DNA of 40,281 bases from a bacterium. Its GTDB lineage: Bacteria > Bacillota > Clostridia > Lachnospirales > Lachnospiraceae. A model generated the notes under the pieces. The model was not told the DNA's origin. It did not search any database and saw nothing but the letters and a program-made list of their open reading frames with translations. Of this stretch, positions 3,546-25,200 are shown piece by piece. Position 1 is the first letter of the stretch. Each line of letters opens with the position of its first letter. The DNA is taken from contig JAMPFT010000027.1 in assembly GCA_023664305.1 (NCBI GenBank), positions 1 through 40,281 on the forward strand, written 5' to 3'. Position numbers and translations under genes: made by a program.

Positions 3546-3590
3546 AAATTCCCTGCAACGGTGGATGGCCGCCGTATTGCAGGGAATTTT
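3546..3590 (+). terminator. intrinsic terminator after the PH-like gene
   Basis: A perfect 13-bp stem pairs AAATTCCCTGCAA (3546-3558) with TTGCAGGGAATTT (3577-3589), with an 18-base loop. The T-run is only four bases. The 3' arm is also the start of a tandem repeat array. Confidence 0.65.
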
Positions 3591-3720
3591 CAAGTGATGA
3601 CGACGCTGTGAAATCTGACGTACTGCAGGAATTTTCAAGTGATGACGCTTCTGCGGAGGCTGACGTATTGCAGGGAATTTTCAAGTGATGACGCTTCTGT
3701 GAAGTCTGACATATTGCAGA
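3574..3720 (+). repeat. 46-bp tandem repeat array
   Basis: There are three contiguous units (3574-3619, 3620-3664, 3665-3710) and the start of a fourth at 3711. Each contains GCAGGGAATTTTCAAGTGAT followed by GACG and a more variable half. Unit lengths are 46, 45 and 46. There is no spacer between units, so this is a minisatellite and not a CRISPR array. Each unit repeats the 3' arm of the adjoining terminator. Confidence 0.85.
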
Positions 3721-6223: not shown

Positions 6224-6262
6224 TTTTTGCGGGAAGTGAGAGCGGAAGCGGATTCGGGAAAA

Positions 6263-6431
6263 AGTGGAAGCGGTTTGTCGGCATGGCAGGAATTGTGGGA
6301 AGAAAGCGGAAGCGGTCTGCCGGGATGGCGGGAATTGTGGGAAGAAAGCGGGAAGCGGTTTGTCGGCATGGCAGGGATTGTGGGAAGAAAGCGGAAATCG
6401 GTCTGCCGTGATGGCGGGGCTGCGGGAAAAG
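6263..6431 (+). repeat. 42-bp minisatellite between folE and the HD gene
   Basis: There are four head-to-tail units at 6263-6304, 6305-6346, 6347-6389 and 6390-6431, of lengths 42, 42, 43 and 42. The core is TGGCRGGAATTGTGGGAAGA preceded by a GGAAGCGGT segment. The units alternate in type: 1 and 3 share GTTTGTCGGCATGG, 2 and 4 share GTCTGCCG. The 43-bp unit breaks any common reading frame, so the array is not coding. Confidence 0.9.
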
Positions 6432-6443
6432 ACAGGAAGCGGA

Positions 6444-6953: not shown

Positions 6954-7128
6954 GTCGATCGGTCTGATTTTGGGAAGGGCAGTCTCTTTGAGAAGAAGCC
7001 GGGCGGTTTTGCTTTGGAGAGAGCAGCTTCTTTGAGAAGGAGCCGGGCGGTTTTGCTTTGGAGAGAGCAGCTTCTTTGAGAAGGGATCGGGGTGCCCCGG
7101 CTTTGGAGGTGCGGATCTCTTTGCAAAA
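6954..7128 (+). repeat. 44-bp minisatellite between the HD gene and folP
   Basis: Two exactly identical 44-bp units lie at 6997-7040 and 7041-7084, each beginning AGCCGGGCGGTTTTGCTTTG. Degenerate units flank them on both sides, recognisable by CTTTGAGAAG or CTCTTTGCAAAATGG. No reading frame of the array looks like protein. Confidence 0.85.
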
Positions 7129-18920: not shown

Positions 18921-21044
18921 ATGGGAAAGATTGATTTTAGCAGCCCGAAATATTATACCAACAGGGAGCTGTCCTGGATTCTCTTTGATCACAGAGTGTT
19001 GAACGAGGCAAGGGACAAACATATCCCGCTTTTCGAGAGACTTAAGTTCTTAAGCATTACGGCGTCGAATCTGGACGAATTTTTCATGATCCGCGTGGCC
19101 TCCTTAAAGGATATGGTGAACGCCGGGTACGAAAAGAAGGATATCGCCGGGATGACACCCTCGAAGCAGCTGGAGGCCATCGACGTGGCAATCCATGAGC
19201 TGGTGGAGATGCAGTACTCCACCTGGAACCGGTCCCTGCTGCCGCAGCTGAAAAAGAACGGTCTGACGGTGGTCAGCAGACACGAGGATCTGACGCCGGA
19301 GGAGGGAGCCTTTATCGACCGGTATTTCGAGGAAAACGTCTATCCTGTGCTGACGCCCATGGCCGTGGATTCCTCCAGACCCTTTCCTCTGGTCCGCAAC
19401 AAGACGTTAAACATAGCGGCGCTGGTACACAAAAAGAACAGCGAAGAGCTGGAGTTTGCCACGGTTCAGGTGCCCTCCGTGCTGGAGCGCATCGTGGCGC
19501 TGCCGACGGAAGGAAAGGCCGCAAAGATCATCTTTCTGGAGGAGATCATCGAGCGGAATATGCACAAGCTGTTCTTAAACTATGATATTGTCTGCGCCCA
19601 CCCTTTCCGGATTATGCGCAACGCCGATTTAAGCATTGAGGAGGACGAGGCGGCGGATCTTTTAAAGGAAATTGAAAAGCAGTTAAAAAAACGGCAGTGG
19701 GGCGAGGCCATCCGCCTGGAGGCGGAGGACGGTATGGATAAGCGGCTGTTGAAAATACTGGAGCGGGAGCTGCATCTGGAGGAGCAGAGTATCTATCGGA
19801 TTCCGGGGCCGCTTGACCTGACCGTGCTGATGAAGCTGTACGGACTGGACGGCTTTGAGCATCTCAAAACTCCGAAGCACATTCCCCAGCCGGTGCCGGA
19901 GCTTCCGGCGGGCTGTGCGATCTTTGAGGAGATCCGAAAGAGAGATATCCTTCTGCACCATCCTTACCAGACCTTTGAGCCGGTGGTGGATTTCATACGG
20001 CAGGCGGCCAGGGATCCGGAGGTTTTGGCCATCAAGCAGACGCTGTACCGGGTCAGCGGCAACTCGCCCATCATCACGGCGCTTGCCCAGGCGGCGGAGA
20101 ACGGGAAACAGGTGACGGTGCTGGTAGAGCTGAAGGCGCGCTTTGACGAGGAGCATAATATCGTCTGGGCGAAGATGCTGGAGAAGGCGGGGTGCCATGT
20201 GATCTACGGGCTGGTGGGACTCAAGACCCACAGCAAGATCACGCTGGTGGTGCGCCGGGAGGAAGACGGGATCCGCCGGTATGTTCACCTTGGCACGGGC
20301 AACTACAACGACGCCACGGCAAAGCTTTATACGGACATCGGACTGCTCACCTGTTCCGAGGCGGTGGGAGAGGACGCCACCGCGGTCTTTAACATGCTGT
20401 CGGGCTATTCCGAGCCTCTTGTGTGGAACAAATTAAGCGTCGCGCCCCTTTGGCTGAAGGATAAATTCCTCTACCTCATCGACAGGGAGACCAGACATGC
20501 GCTGGGAGGACATCCCGCCAGAATCATCGCAAAGGTCAATTCCCTCTGCGACAGGGATATCATCGCCGCCCTGTACGCGGCCAGCGCCGCGGGCGTGCGC
20601 ATCGATCTGATCGTCCGGGGAATCTGCTGCCTGAAGACGGGGATCAAGGGGGTCAGCGAGAATATAACGGTGCGCTCTATCGTGGGAAATTTCTTGGAGC
20701 ACAGCAGAATTTTTTACTTTGAAAATGATGAACGGTACGAAATTTACTGCGGAAGCGCCGACTGGATGCCCAGAAATCTGGAACGCCGGGTGGAAATTCT
20801 CTTCCCCATCGACCGGCCGGAGCTGAAGGAGGAGCTTCTGCATATCCTGCAGAGCCAGTTAAAGGACAACGTCAAGGCCTCCGTCCTGCAGGAGGACGGC
20901 TCCTATGAGAGAGTGGATAAGCGGGGAAAATCCCGTTTCCAGTGTCAGGAGGCTTTCTGCCAGGAGGCGCAGAAAAAGGCGAAGAGCGCGGTGGAAGAGG
21001 AAGCGCATATGACGAGGACGTTTGTCCCGGAGGTGCATCAGTGA
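18921..21044 (+). CDS. ppk1: polyphosphate kinase 1
   Basis: It reversibly transfers the gamma-phosphate of ATP to polyphosphate. The 707-residue product (E. coli 688) has the N-terminal Y-x-N-R-E-L-S-W-I-x-F-D-x-R-V-L-N-E-A motif and the N-D and H domains. The two PLD-like C-terminal domains carry the phosphorylated histidine His437 in L-K-T-H-S-K and the second catalytic His594 in L-E-H-S-R-I. The start at ATG 18921 follows GGAGA. Its TGA overlaps the GTG start of maf, so the two are translationally coupled. The extra tail of about 25 residues is charged. Confidence 0.96.
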   Translation: MGKIDFSSPKYYTNRELSWILFDHRVLNEARDKHIPLFERLKFLSITASNLDEFFMIRVASLKDMVNAGYEKKDIAGMTPSKQLEAIDVAIHELVEMQYSTWNRSLLPQLKKNGLTVVSRHEDLTPEEGAFIDRYFEENVYPVLTPMAVDSSRPFPLVRNKTLNIAALVHKKNSEELEFATVQVPSVLERIVALPTEGKAAKIIFLEEIIERNMHKLFLNYDIVCAHPFRIMRNADLSIEEDEAADLLKEIEKQLKKRQWGEAIRLEAEDGMDKRLLKILERELHLEEQSIYRIPGPLDLTVLMKLYGLDGFEHLKTPKHIPQPVPELPAGCAIFEEIRKRDILLHHPYQTFEPVVDFIRQAARDPEVLAIKQTLYRVSGNSPIITALAQAAENGKQVTVLVELKARFDEEHNIVWAKMLEKAGCHVIYGLVGLKTHSKITLVVRREEDGIRRYVHLGTGNYNDATAKLYTDIGLLTCSEAVGEDATAVFNMLSGYSEPLVWNKLSVAPLWLKDKFLYLIDRETRHALGGHPARIIAKVNSLCDRDIIAALYAASAAGVRIDLIVRGICCLKTGIKGVSENITVRSIVGNFLEHSRIFYFENDERYEIYCGSADWMPRNLERRVEILFPIDRPELKEELLHILQSQLKDNVKASVLQEDGSYERVDKRGKSRFQCQEAFCQEAQKKAKSAVEEEAHMTRTFVPEVHQ

Positions 21045-21748
21045 AGATATATCTGGCGTCCGCATCCCCCAGAAGAAAGGAACTGCTGGAGCAGATCGGA
21101 CTGGAATTTGAAGTGTGTGTGAGCAAGGTGCAGGAGCAGATTGCCGCCGTAGGGCCGGGCAAGGCGGTGGAAGAGCTGGCCGCACAGAAAGCCCGGGCGG
21201 TTTTGGAGGAACTGTCGGCTCGGAAGGCGGAGACGGTTTTGAAGGAACTGCCGGATAGGAGGCCGGAGGCGGTTCCGGAGGAGTTGTCGGCTCGGACGGT
21301 GGAGGCGGTTTTGGAGGAACTGCCGGCTCGGAAGGCGGAGACGGTTCCGGAGGAATTTCTCGTCATCGGCGCGGATACGGTCGTAGCGCTAAAGGACAGA
21401 ATTTTGGGAAAACCCGCGGACGAAAAAGAGGCGGCGCAAATGCTTGTCCTGTTAGCGGGAAAGACCCATGAAGTTTATACGGGAGTGGCCCTTCTGCACA
21501 GAATGCCTGACGGCGCCGTGGAGAGCAGGATTTTCCATGAGGCGACAAAGGTGACCTTCTTTCCCATGGACGGGGAGGAAATCAGACGGTATGCGGCCAC
21601 CGGCGACTGCCTGGATAAGGCCGGAGCCTACGGCATCCAGGGCTTCTGCGCCAGGTACATACAGGGGATCGAGGGAGATTACAATAACGTAGTGGGACTT
21701 CCGGTGGGAAGGCTTTATCAGGAAGCAAAGGAGTGGCTTGGAGCATGA
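21041..21748 (+). CDS. maf: Maf-family nucleoside triphosphate pyrophosphatase with an in-frame repeat insertion
   Basis: Maf hydrolyses non-canonical or m-type NTPs (dTTP/UTP class) to monophosphates and affects septum formation. The 235-residue product has S-A-S-P-R-R-K-E-L-L at 7-16, V-I-G-A-D-T-V-V at 108-115, and G-K-T-H-E-V-Y-T-G. It also has the Y-G-I-Q-G and G-D-Y-x-N-V-V-G-L-P motifs. Usual length is about 190. The excess is residues 51-105, built from four to five 12-residue repeats rich in Glu, Ala, Val and Leu between the first helices and the catalytic Asp. The start is GTG 21041 with GGAGG seven bases before it, overlapping the ppk1 stop. All catalytic residues are present, so it is likely functional. 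Confidence 0.94.
   Translation: MKIYLASASPRRKELLEQIGLEFEVCVSKVQEQIAAVGPGKAVEELAAQKARAVLEELSARKAETVLKELPDRRPEAVPEELSARTVEAVLEELPARKAETVPEEFLVIGADTVVALKDRILGKPADEKEAAQMLVLLAGKTHEVYTGVALLHRMPDGAVESRIFHEATKVTFFPMDGEEIRRYAATGDCLDKAGAYGIQGFCARYIQGIEGDYNNVVGLPVGRLYQEAKEWLGA
21191..21364 (+). repeat. 36-bp in-frame tandem repeat inside maf
   Basis: Units lie at 21191-21223 (33 bp), 21224-21259, 21260-21295, 21296-21331 and a partial at 21332-21364. Each follows the pattern GAGGCGGTTTTGGAGGAACT then a GCCGGCTCGG-like end, coding for twelve residues of the type K-A-E-T-V-L-E-E-L-P-A-R. All full units are multiples of three, so the frame is kept. Confidence 0.9.
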
Positions 21749-22395
21749 AAAAGGCCGTGATTTTTGATCTGGACGGAACATTGTCCGACTCGATTGCCAG
21801 CTTAAAATACTGCGGGGACAGGGCGCTGGCGCCTTTCGGCTACGGCCCTTTTCCGGAGTCCGACTACAAATATTTCGTGGGCGACGGGGCGGCAAATCTG
21901 GTCAAAAGGGCGCTGATTAAGGCGGGGGACGAGAAGCTGGCACACTTTGAGGAAGCCTTTGCCCTGTACAAAGACTACTTTGCGGCGGACTGCATGTATC
22001 AGGTAAAGCCCTACGACGGAATACCGGAGCTTTTGACGGCGCTGAAGGAAAGGGGGCTGAAGACGGCGGTGCTCTCCAATAAGCCTCATCTGCAGACCTT
22101 GGAGGTTATCCATACCCTGTTCGGCAGGGACTGCTTTGACCTGATTTGGGGACAGCGGGACGGCCTGCCCATCAAGCCAGACCCGGCCGGGGTTTTTGCC
22201 ATTCTGGATAAACTGAATCTGGGCGCGGAGGAAATCCTTTATCTGGGGGACACCGCCACGGACATGAAAACCGGCAAGAGCGCGGGAGCCTTTACCATCG
22301 GCGCACTTTGGGGCTTTCGGGACAGACAGGAGCTGGAGGAGGGAGGCGCGGACGCTTTGATCGCGCATCCGCCGGAGCTGCTGGAATATGTTTAA
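21745..22395 (+). CDS. HAD-family phosphatase, phosphoglycolate phosphatase-like
   Basis: The 216-residue HAD hydrolase (subfamily IA) has motif I D-L-D-G-T-L-S-D-S at residues 8-16 and motif II L-S-N-K-P near 113. The motif III lysine is in I-K-P-D-P near 146, and motif IV is G-D-T-A-T-D-M near 171. Overall similarity is to Gph/PpaX-type phosphatases; the substrate is not determined. The start at ATG 21745 overlaps the maf stop codon (ATGA). It is the last gene of the row. No clear terminator follows before the promoter at 22427. Confidence 0.88.
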   Translation: MKKAVIFDLDGTLSDSIASLKYCGDRALAPFGYGPFPESDYKYFVGDGAANLVKRALIKAGDEKLAHFEEAFALYKDYFAADCMYQVKPYDGIPELLTALKERGLKTAVLSNKPHLQTLEVIHTLFGRDCFDLIWGQRDGLPIKPDPAGVFAILDKLNLGAEEILYLGDTATDMKTGKSAGAFTIGALWGFRDRQELEEGGADALIAHPPELLEYV

Positions 22396-22426
22396 AAGAG
22401 ACAGTGCATAAAAATTATATAGGGTA

Positions 22427-22457
22427 TTGACAATCTTTTTTCGGGGGGGGGTAAAAT
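22427..22457 (+). promoter_or_regulatory. promoter with a poly-G spacer tract
   Basis: TTGACA (22427-22432) and TAAAAT (22452-22457) are 19 bases apart. The spacer contains six T, a C and then nine G (22443-22451). A spacer of 17 would be optimal, so loss of two G would be expected to strengthen it. A homopolymer in this position is the classical arrangement for switching by slipped-strand mispairing. The target is the secreted repeat protein at 22514. Confidence 0.7.
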
Positions 22458-22513
22458 AGTGGTACGAAACATCCGTGTCCTGTTTGGCATGGGGAAACAA
22501 GGAGGAAACGAAA

Positions 22514-23818
22514 GTGAGTACTGAAAAAGGAAAAATTGCAAAAAGCACAAGACGCATTCTGACGGTTGGGCTGGCGGGCTGTCTGCTGTGCGGCAGCGTC
22601 ATGCAGGTCAGTGCGGTGACGCTGAAGGATGTGTTTGACCCGGAGTATTACGCAGATACTTATCCGGATCTGAAGGAGGCATTCGGCTACAACAGCAAGC
22701 TGCTCTGGAAGCATTTCAAAACCTGCGGCCTGGCGGAAGGCAGAAGCATGAACGGCATGATCGACATCGTAAAGTACCGGGAGAGCTACGCCGATTTGGA
22801 GGAGGCCTTCGGGAATGACTGGGACGCTTATCTGGAGCATTATTTGAACTATGGGGCGAAGGAAGGGAGAGACTCCGGGACGGGATTTAATCCCATGGAC
22901 TATGCGGGAAGATACGAGGATCTGCAGGAAGCCTTCGGTGAGGATATTCTGGCTCTCTGGGAACATTATCATACTTATGGGGCTACGGAGAACCGGGAGG
23001 CCAGGGCTGAGACCGTCGTGCAGGCGGAGAAGGCAGCGGAGGCAGCCGCGGCACAGAGGCAGCAGGCGGCAAGCGGATGGACCGAGCGGGTAGATCATAC
23101 CTATAACGACGGCTGGGATATTCGGGAATATAACAGTGTGGGTCAGATGGTAAAGCAGACCTCTTATAACGCGGACGGCAGCATGTCGAGATGGATGGTG
23201 TATGAATATAACAGTGCGGGTCAGATGGTAAAACAGACCTCTTATAACGCGGACGGCAGCATGTCGGCATGGGGTGTGTATGAATATAACAGTGCGGGTC
23301 AGAAAGTAAAGGAGACTTATTATAACGCGGACGGCAGCATGTTGAGTTGGATGGTGTATGAATATAACAGTGCGGGTCAGATGGTAAAGGAGATTTATTA
23401 TAACGCGGACGGTAGTGTAAGGTACAGATATGTATATGTATACTGCAATGGAAAACAGCTGACGCAAAGTTACATTCGGTATAATTCAGACGGCAGCGTA
23501 TCCGAAAGTAAAGCGCATGAATATGACAGCGCCGGGAATGAGATAATGGTGAAGTATACCAATTATACCGATTCTGCTCGATCCTATTGGTATGAATATG
23601 AATTGAACAGTGCCGGGCAGTGGCTCAAGTCGATCATGAAAAACTCGGACGGCAGTGTAAATATGTGGACGGAGTTTGAATATGATGACGCAGGGCGTCG
23701 TACAAAGATGACTGAAAAAGATGCAGGCGGCAGTGTATGGAGGTGGTGGGAATATACCTATGACAGCGATGGAAAGCAGACTGTGACTGAACACACAGCC
23801 GATGAAGAACAGAATTAA
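22514..23818 (+). CDS. secreted protein with N-terminal Y-Y-x-x-x-Y-P-D-L repeats and C-terminal YD-like repeats
   Basis: The 434-residue protein has a signal peptide (basic start, hydrophobic stretch L-T-V-G-L-A-G-C-L-L-C-G, cleavage after V-S-A near residue 34). The first module has three repeats of about 36-38 residues: D-P-E-Y-Y-A-D-T-Y-P-D-L, then E-A-F-G, a W/H segment, and G-L-A-E-G-R or G-A-K-E-G-R. An Ala/Gln-rich linker follows. Residues 205 onward contain about eight units of roughly 26 residues of the form E-Y-N-S-A-G-Q-M-V-K, then Y-N-A-D-G-S, resembling RHS/YD repeats. No transmembrane anchor or sorting signal is seen at the C-terminus. The start is GTG 22514, eight bases after GGAGG. 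Its role is unknown, probably binding at the cell surface or in the medium. Confidence 0.85.
   Translation: MSTEKGKIAKSTRRILTVGLAGCLLCGSVMQVSAVTLKDVFDPEYYADTYPDLKEAFGYNSKLLWKHFKTCGLAEGRSMNGMIDIVKYRESYADLEEAFGNDWDAYLEHYLNYGAKEGRDSGTGFNPMDYAGRYEDLQEAFGEDILALWEHYHTYGATENREARAETVVQAEKAAEAAAAQRQQAASGWTERVDHTYNDGWDIREYNSVGQMVKQTSYNADGSMSRWMVYEYNSAGQMVKQTSYNADGSMSAWGVYEYNSAGQKVKETYYNADGSMLSWMVYEYNSAGQMVKEIYYNADGSVRYRYVYVYCNGKQLTQSYIRYNSDGSVSESKAHEYDSAGNEIMVKYTNYTDSARSYWYEYELNSAGQWLKSIMKNSDGSVNMWTEFEYDDAGRRTKMTEKDAGGSVWRWWEYTYDSDGKQTVTEHTADEEQN
23126..23437 (+). repeat. four 78-bp direct repeats in the secreted protein gene
   Basis: Units of 78 bp (26 codons) start at 23126, 23204, 23282 and 23360 with GAATATAACAGTGYGGGTCA, and share TATAACGCGGACGGCAGCAT. 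Downstream units are older and diverged. The near-identity indicates recent duplication. Confidence 0.9.
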
Positions 23819-23918: not shown

Positions 23919-23961
23919 GAAGCCTCCCTGCCTTATCGACGGATAGGGCGGGGGCTTCTTT
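23919..23961 (+). terminator. intrinsic terminator after the secreted protein gene
   Basis: The stem GAAGCC (23919-23924) with GGCTTC (23953-23958) is extended inward by TCCC/GGG and TTATC/GGATA pairs, and is followed by TTT. It lies about 100 bases after the stop codon. Confidence 0.7.
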
Positions 23962-24291: not shown

Positions 24292-25200
24292 ATGGGATTT
24301 GTTTCGTTAAAGTACGACTTTGCCTTTAAGCGGTTGATGGAGAACGAGGCGGTCAGGAAGCATTTTGTCAGCGACGTGTTGGAAATCCCTGTGGAGGAGA
24401 TTCAGTCCGCGCGGATCGCCAGCCCTGTTTTAGGGAAGGCTTATCTTTGGCAGAAGGAGGGCGTATTGGACATCCTGTTGGTGCTGCAGGACGGCAGGAA
24501 GGTAAACATCGAGCTGCAGGTCAGATCCATAAAATATTGGGACAGGAGAGTCTCGTTTTATTTGGCGAGGATGCTTGCGGAGGACATGCGGGCCGGGGAG
24601 GATTATGGGAAGCTGAAAAAGTGTATTAATATCAGTATCCTGGATTTTGAGATAGATGACAGTCCGGAATACCACAGGGTATACCGCCTCCGGGACAGGC
24701 AGGGGAATGACTTTACGGATCTGATGGAGATACATATTATCGAGCTGCGTAAAGATCTGAGCGGCGGGAAGCTGGACGACTGGATCCGGCTGTTTAACGC
24801 GAAGACAGAGGAGGAATTGAGTATGATAAAGACAGAAAATCCCGGGATGTTGGAAGCGATCAGGGAGGTCAGGGCCATGAGCTATGGAAAAACACTGAGA
24901 TGGATGTACGAGACATGGCGGATGAACCAATGGGATCGGAAGGCCAGGGAGGAGTATGTGCGGGATGAGGGAATAGCGATCGGGGAGGAGAGAGGAATTG
25001 TTCGGGGCATTACTCAGGGCGAGACCCGGAAGCTGGTAAGTCTTGTAAGGAAGAAAGTTGCTCGAAATCAGACAGCGGAGGAGATTGCTGCTCTGCTGGA
25101 GGAAGAACCTTCTCACATTTCCGAAATCTGTGATCTGATCAGAAAACATCCCGAATGGAACGACGAGAGAATCTGTCAGGAATTGGAGGATTCCTTATAA
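24292..25200 (+). CDS. Rpn-family recombination-promoting nuclease / putative transposase
   Basis: The 302-residue protein belongs to the PD-(D/E)XK nuclease family (Rpn, TIGR01784-like). It starts with the typical L-K-Y-D-F-A-F-K-R-L. The catalytic core is G-V-L-D-I-L-L at 57-63 (Asp60) and N-I-E-L-Q-V at 72-77 (Glu74-x-Gln76). The C-terminal part has the usual G-I-A-I-G-E-E-R-G and G-I-T-Q-G-E repeats and a helical tail with a possible helix-turn-helix (T-A-E-E-I-A-A-L-L near 262-270). Such genes are numerous in gut Clostridia and may aid RecA-independent recombination or act in defence. ATG 24292 follows AAGGAGG. No terminal inverted repeats are seen, so I do not call a mobile element. Confidence 0.88.
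   Translation: MGFVSLKYDFAFKRLMENEAVRKHFVSDVLEIPVEEIQSARIASPVLGKAYLWQKEGVLDILLVLQDGRKVNIELQVRSIKYWDRRVSFYLARMLAEDMRAGEDYGKLKKCINISILDFEIDDSPEYHRVYRLRDRQGNDFTDLMEIHIIELRKDLSGGKLDDWIRLFNAKTEEELSMIKTENPGMLEAIREVRAMSYGKTLRWMYETWRMNQWDRKAREEYVRDEGIAIGEERGIVRGITQGETRKLVSLVRKKVARNQTAEEIAALLEEEPSHISEICDLIRKHPEWNDERICQELEDSL

Follow-up and report, generated by a model that had tools for sequence, protein, structure and literature searches.

In gut commensals, DNA inversion is the form of phase variation that receives most attention. The closest described counterparts of the locus treated here are promoters with a homopolymer in or near their spacer. According to the passages of PMC7864442 that deal with such promoters, tp0126 of T. 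pallidum, which encodes an outer-membrane protein homolog, carries poly-G between -35 and -10, with measured length effects and an optimum at a total spacer of 17; measurements showed that the poly-G in the related promoter of tprL varies within isolates, and in meningococcal porA poly-G is situated between the promoter signatures. In case of Neisseria meningitidis fetA, the relevant excerpt of PMC5953494 gives an intergenic C(10-14) tract. A 2025 review of phase variation presents, in the passages considered, inversion systems of C. difficile and Bacteroides, and a word search of the review gave 0 matches for Firmicutes, Gram-positive, Bacillota, and spacer (PMC11868660). Slippage in the corresponding excerpt of PMC6437147 concerns Campylobacter, and a "poly-g" match in PMC12355684 was rejected, as it stands for polyglycerolphosphate in the matching passage. 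Neither slippage switches in Lachnospiraceae nor a genus-wide G-only promoter set were found in the open-licence literature searched.

The window, i.e., the whole stretch of DNA that was analysed (40,281 nt), contains a promoter with a G tract in its spacer, located between two genes of the same strand. The features are as follows:

21733..22395, + strand: upstream gene encoding a HAD-family hydrolase (Pfam)
22427..22432, + strand: -35 element TTGACA (consensus), read from the sequence; the layout recurs in the genome and genus searches
22433..22442, + strand: fixed spacer part of 10 nt (ATCTTTTTTC), read from the sequence; the non-G length is mostly kept among orthologs
22443..22451, + strand: G9 tract, the variable spacer part, total spacer 19 (sequence, run counts, ortholog pairs)
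22452..22457, + strand: -10 element TAAAAT, directly abutting the G9 tract (sequence)
22500..22505, + strand: ribosome binding site AGGAGG (sequence)
22514..23818, + strand: gene of a secreted repeat protein (DUF2963 / RHS-repeat type), 434 aa, GTG start (sequence, Pfam)
23126..23412, + strand: tandem repeats of 78 bp (26 aa), 3.7 copies, 88% matches (repeat scan)
23925..23954, + strand: terminator-like hairpin 3' of the repeat-protein gene, weak (1 found versus a shuffle mean of 2.4)

On direct reading, the full spacer (22433-22451) consists of 10 nt plus G9, i.e., 19 nt. The first-pass annotation, which had reported nine G between TTGACA and TAAAAT and a 19-base spacer, was exact in this respect, and its statement that loss of two G leads to a 17-base spacer holds (19 - 2 = 17). 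In its architecture, the promoter fits the poly-G spacer class, in which a homopolymer of at least about 8 lies between recognisable -35 and -10 elements and its length sets the spacer; its transcript is predicted to begin near 22464. That G homopolymers in spacers serve as switches in other bacteria, as had also been stated, is published for tp0126 and porA in the passages mentioned above (PMC7864442). The description of the downstream product as a secreted repeat protein was fair, given the signal-peptide-like N-terminus (judged by eye) and the 3.7 copies of the 78-bp repeat; on the longer reading from 22475, Pfam matches to PF11178 (4e-18) and PF05593 (3.8e-14) were obtained. No NCBIfam name was found for the product, and no relatives of it were confirmed in viral contigs. 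Further tandem repeats of the window are located at 3573-3719, 6255-6442, and 6968-7084, and 36-bp repeats occur at 21189-21355 inside an ORF (20942-21748) matching Maf. Downstream of the repeat-protein gene, an ORF resembling a PD-(D/E)XK nuclease family transposase (Pfam PF12784) is situated at 24292-25200.

With tp0126, as far as the cited passages describe it, the locus shares the G run in the promoter spacer, but there a spirochaete pathogen is concerned, whereas here many loci in genome sequences of commensal Lachnospiraceae are involved. Neisseria porA and fetA share with it, in the excerpts cited, that promoter geometry is altered by a homopolymer situated between the -35 and -10 elements or close to them. 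While these are single-gene switches, the layout described here recurs at as many as about ten loci in one genome, its tract abuts the -10 element or lies two nt off, and it shows G only in the strand of the gene and lineage-typical lengths. Each single site is of a known kind; it is the genus-wide G-only Lachnospiraceae set with lineage-typical lengths that was not found in print in the open-licence literature. Invertible promoters, e.g., of Clostridioides difficile, share transcriptional phase variation and the occurrence in gut anaerobes, according to passages of PMC11868660, but they act by site-specific inversion between inverted repeats. Since 0 inverted repeat pairs of at least 10 nt were detected around the promoter (22300-22620), an invertible promoter was rejected. 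A riboswitch or cis-RNA leader was rejected as well, as the leader gave 0 Rfam matches at gathering threshold in the same interval. With a probability of about 0.6, we favour a sigma-A promoter of the kind known from porA and tp0126, tuned by slippage. A G run, read in the strand of the gene, forms the end of its spacer, and it belongs to a genus-wide set.

Occurrence of the layout in the genome and across the genus

The window has few long G runs: 3 G7 positions were counted on both strands, all of them within this run, versus about 10.8 expected from dinucleotide shuffles. Among the homopolymers of all four bases in the window, the G9 tract is the longest. The own genome (3.58 Mb, 44 contigs) contains 31 G8 positions, which form 25 runs of at least 8, and six of these reach the maximum length of 9. 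Inspection in context covered 24 of the 25 runs (the remaining one had no locus), and 4 of the 25 are located between TTGAC and TANNNT. The pattern of TTGAC, a gap, G5+, and TANNNT, with the reversed pattern as control, yielded 4 sites (the window at C19:22443, C22:51113, C38:93, and C41:70430), all of them with G8 or G9; the reversed G5+ control matched 2 times and the reversed G8+ pattern 0 times. For 25 runs combined with TTGAC, a spacer of 13-21, and TANANT, the chance expectation is about 0.001 to 0.004, an approximate value based on overlapping loci.

The C22 site resembles that of the window (N10+G9, spacer 19) and precedes a gene encoding a 429-aa protein with a zinc-ribbon-like end (by eye). 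A small lipoprotein-like gene follows the C41 site, and in case of C38 the gene is cut off by the contig end within its first few codons. A less strict layout, in which two bases separate G7 from the -10 element, adds sites on C10 and C33 of the own genome, and both genes start zinc-ribbon-like. These two sites, L366 (G000:C10:25093-25120) and L367 (G000:C33:106427-106454), read TTGACA-N7-G7-CG-TAAACT with a spacer of 16. The second layout, TTGACA-N7-Gn-2 nt, has tracts of G6-G9 in several genomes of the genus.

The genus, which we infer to be Acetatifactor (Lachnospiraceae), was searched in 138 genomes; G8+ sites numbered 52 and were distributed over 28 of these genomes, with 0 matches of the reversed control. 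The C7+ version gave 0 sites in the same 138 genomes; thus the layout comprises G in the strand of the gene only. With G6+ and TANANT, in a search covering spacers up to 17, 114 sites were identified in 30 of 40 chosen genomes against 1 control match, and a single genome contains up to about ten sites (G013 and G044 have 10 each). The layout with the tract two bases from -10 accounts for 62 rows in 36 of 138 genomes versus 4 controls, a number that includes some abutting sites again, as the second gap can absorb extra G. The loose G5+ pattern, searched with spacers of 11-19, occurred among the matches listed at 193 sites versus 53 reversed controls in 91 genus genomes, whereas in 55 genomes outside the genus 30 sites versus 30 controls, i.e., no excess, were found among the matches listed. 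Several G5 matches read ATACCC...GGGGGTATATT, which we take to be CsoR sites; CsoR-type operators were set aside, the later promoter sets requiring G6 or more.

Homopolymers are error-prone in assembly, the lengths stem from single assemblies, many of them MAGs, and the loose G5+ pattern has non-zero controls, all of which could be read as chance or as a homopolymer assembly artefact. Such an origin is highly improbable in view of the 0 matches of both the G8+ reversed control and the C7+ version, the presence of the layout in 28 of 138 genomes, and an own-genome chance expectation far below 1, and for the architecture it is largely refuted.

Promoters reading TTGACA-N-G-TANAAT were also noted, among the matches listed, in Moraxella, Streptococcus, Streptobacillus, Helicobacter, and Treponema records (L089, L101, L112, L121, L128, and others), in a search with no control run that covered spacers of 14-18, so that the length spread there is bounded by design. 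Tandem pairs of G-tract promoters before one gene were encountered at L311 (G013:C7), L304 (G083:C41), and L387 (G033:C36); in L311 and L304 the two G counts differ.

Tract and spacer lengths in the promoter set

The collected set comprises 136 promoters from 39 genomes, chosen for fetching and not a census; it is limited to spacers of 12-22 and to sites with an ORF, each site being counted once per genome. Its common shape is TTGACA, a fixed part of mostly 9-10 nt, and then 6 to 12 G, abutting the -10 element or two nt from it. Spacer totals are 13 (1 promoter), 14 (1), 15 (17), 16 (67), 17 (14), 18 (7), 19 (19), 20 (8), and 21 (2). The commonest forms are N9+G7 (42/136) and N7+G7+2 nt (20/136), the second layout, with its tract two bases further from -10, mostly keeping a total spacer of 16. 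In 58 of 79 family representatives, the tract is preceded by C.

In the 12 long-tract genomes, including that of the window, 17 of 36 promoters have a spacer of 19. In the remaining genomes, 64 of 100 promoters have a spacer of 16, and a 9-nt remainder with G7 occurs in 60 of 100. The two spacer modes (16 and 19) arise partly by construction, because the long set was selected by tract length; the long-tract genomes originate mostly from the G8+ search, and in G191, G169, and G183 abutting tracts were searched from a length of 8 onwards. Six of the long-tract genomes (G038, G169, G172, G183, G081, and G001) cluster in a tree based on RpoD from 30 genomes, and others are placed elsewhere. Between 12 genomes with a mean G count of at least 8.5 and 16 with a mean below 7.6 (G000 and G149, mean 8.0, belong to neither group), no fixed RpoD residue was found in 344 aligned columns, 98 of them variable, from 30 genomes. 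A changed sigma factor as the cause of tract length was rejected, as no RpoD residue separates long from short genomes. In two genus genomes, a second RpoD-like sigma factor was noted (G029:C39 and G189:C7, 336 and 339 bits, family cut-off 354).

The strongest counter-argument to a switch is that many genomes keep G7 with spacer 16 and that C runs are absent, which fits a fixed element equally well. The set may represent a stable promoter class, in which the G run just upstream of -10 is a fixed functional element (a contact similar to an extended -10, or the site of a regulator) and the mark of an envelope regulon, and in which length differences between species reflect slow drift and not switching. 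The C preceding most tracts would suit such an element, and the restriction to G, never C, suggests that the G letters themselves matter. The second layout does not fit easily, since it mostly totals 16 as well, as if the distance rather than the position of the tract were kept, nor does the lack of an RpoD residue fixed between long- and short-tract genomes. For slippage tuning, on the other hand, the centre of the long-tract genomes at spacer 19 counts against the proposal, as a simple model would leave most of these promoters off.

Tract length among orthologs and phage contigs

Ortholog pairs consist of reciprocal-best downstream genes of different species with a tract promoter on both sides, losses being uncounted, and the genus comparison contains one genome per species. 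Of the 38 pairs, 17 have unequal numbers of G and 10 an unequal length of the remaining spacer; some promoters recur among the pairs, and a few loci (e.g., G029/G189) were fetched since their prefixes already looked alike. The non-G spacer length is kept in 28 of 38 pairs and in 9 of 9 close pairs. These nine close pairs, defined by an identity of 75% or more in both flanks, have unequal G counts in 4 cases and an unequal length of the remaining spacer in 0; their 1074 flanking nt contain 8 gaps, and of 190 promoter bases beyond the tract 7 are substituted. In five pairs, -35, non-G spacer, and -10 agree letter by letter, but the number of G does not: L367/L373 (7/8; the own-genome site with G7 versus G050 with G8), L282/L293 (7/6), L263/L272 (6/7), L262/L271 (8/7), and L356/L364 (8/6).

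With the claim of a phase-variable tract, made in the first-pass annotation for one site, the pairs agree in part: changes in the G count outnumber changes in the length of the remaining spacer (17 versus 10 of 38; close pairs 4 versus 0 of 9), but the many members of the genus-wide set that are constant at G7 and spacer 16 depart from what is expected of a pure switch. The same G count in 21 of 38 ortholog pairs speaks against a fast switch. Three G074/G044 pairs (L281/L294, L283/L286, and L285/L287) keep G7 although other promoter letters changed, as a fixed element would, whereas the span of tract lengths from 6 to 12 and the unequal counts in the five otherwise letter-identical pairs are at odds with it. 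Weighing these observations, we consider a stable promoter class unlikely, if still an alternative to be reckoned with.

Among the 31 homolog loci of the window gene (window included), the layout is present at 10, with G6, G7, or G9, and was not found in 350 nt upstream of the match at the other 21. Own-genome paralogs on C29, C20, and C10 are likewise without such a tract in 350 nt upstream of the match. The promoter might also be little used, the gene being transcribed mainly by read-through from the HAD gene and the tract being incidental. Since the hairpin scan detected nothing terminator-like between the HAD gene and this promoter, some read-through into the repeat-protein gene is possible, and a 19-base spacing is poor for sigma-A. 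The recurrence of the layout at 10 of the 31 loci and the retained consensus TTGACA, however, render this explanation improbable.

A comparison of the layout at strain level is offered by three phage contigs (L323, L325, and L432; viral), which have a promoter of the same look with a G tract between TTGACA and TAAAAT. Two of the three are identical over the shared 2950 bp (G12). L323 and L432 are 99.7% identical over 7300 bp with only two gaps, both inside the tract (12 versus 15 nt); the longer tract of 15 nt contains two T, possibly a sequencing error. Four further viral contigs, L324, L326, L327, and L328, show TTGACA-N8-Gn-TAGAAT with G8, G8, G7, and G10, respectively.

Downstream products and the proposed slippage tuning

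Secreted and membrane products are enriched behind the promoters. Product classes were assigned by a simple hydropathy rule and not by a trained predictor, with one representative for each of 73 of the 79 families (products of at least 60 aa), and compared to a small background of ORFs from tract loci, RpoD loci, and the window. Secreted- or lipoprotein-like products were assigned to 34 of 73 downstream families versus 12 of 122 background ORFs (Fisher 1.6e-8) and zinc-ribbon membrane proteins to 9 of 73 versus 1 of 122 (7e-4), while 24 of 73 families are soluble-looking. Pfam matches, considered for 70 of the 73 families (L320, L360, and L361 were left out), comprise zinc ribbons (8/70), TPR (3), RHS (3), LRR (2), DUF2963 (2), and others. 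In case of L281 and L294, the gene after the layout has an N-terminus that presumably resembles CpsB-type tyrosine phosphatases of capsule operons.

With regard to slippage tuning, the poly-G spacer probably acts as a switch or dial. The G run would gain or lose letters by replication slippage, each step would shift the distance between -35 and -10 by one base pair, and transcription would be expected to drop as the spacer departs from an optimum of about 16-17. Envelope and secreted proteins would consequently vary between cells and between lineages. By the rule of tp0126 and porA, the window allele with its spacer of 19 is predicted to be weak, and minus two G would bring it to 17; the G9 allele may thus represent a weak or off state and about G7 the on state. 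If both the fixed-element and the switch readings were true, short tracts could represent a locked and long tracts a switching state. In favour of slippage tuning count the excess of sites over controls in the own genome and in the genus, the differences in G count among orthologs, the 10 homolog loci with the layout, the bias towards secreted products, the phage contigs, and the precedents tp0126 and porA. Counted against slippage tuning are the 21 homolog loci lacking the tract, the lack of a G5+ excess outside the genus, and the soluble-looking families.

It is tempting to extend this to a contingency regulon of Acetatifactor and its relatives, in which up to about ten promoters per genome, all sharing one short signature, with the -35/-10 distance set by G6-12 and lineage-typical set points at spacer 16 or 19, would tune envelope and secreted proteins independently by slippage, a proposal for which we regard the arguments as evenly balanced. 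If true, this would be a transcriptional phase-variation system based on simple sequence repeats in a Gram-positive gut commensal, and common gut Firmicutes would diversify their surface as Neisseria and treponemes do.
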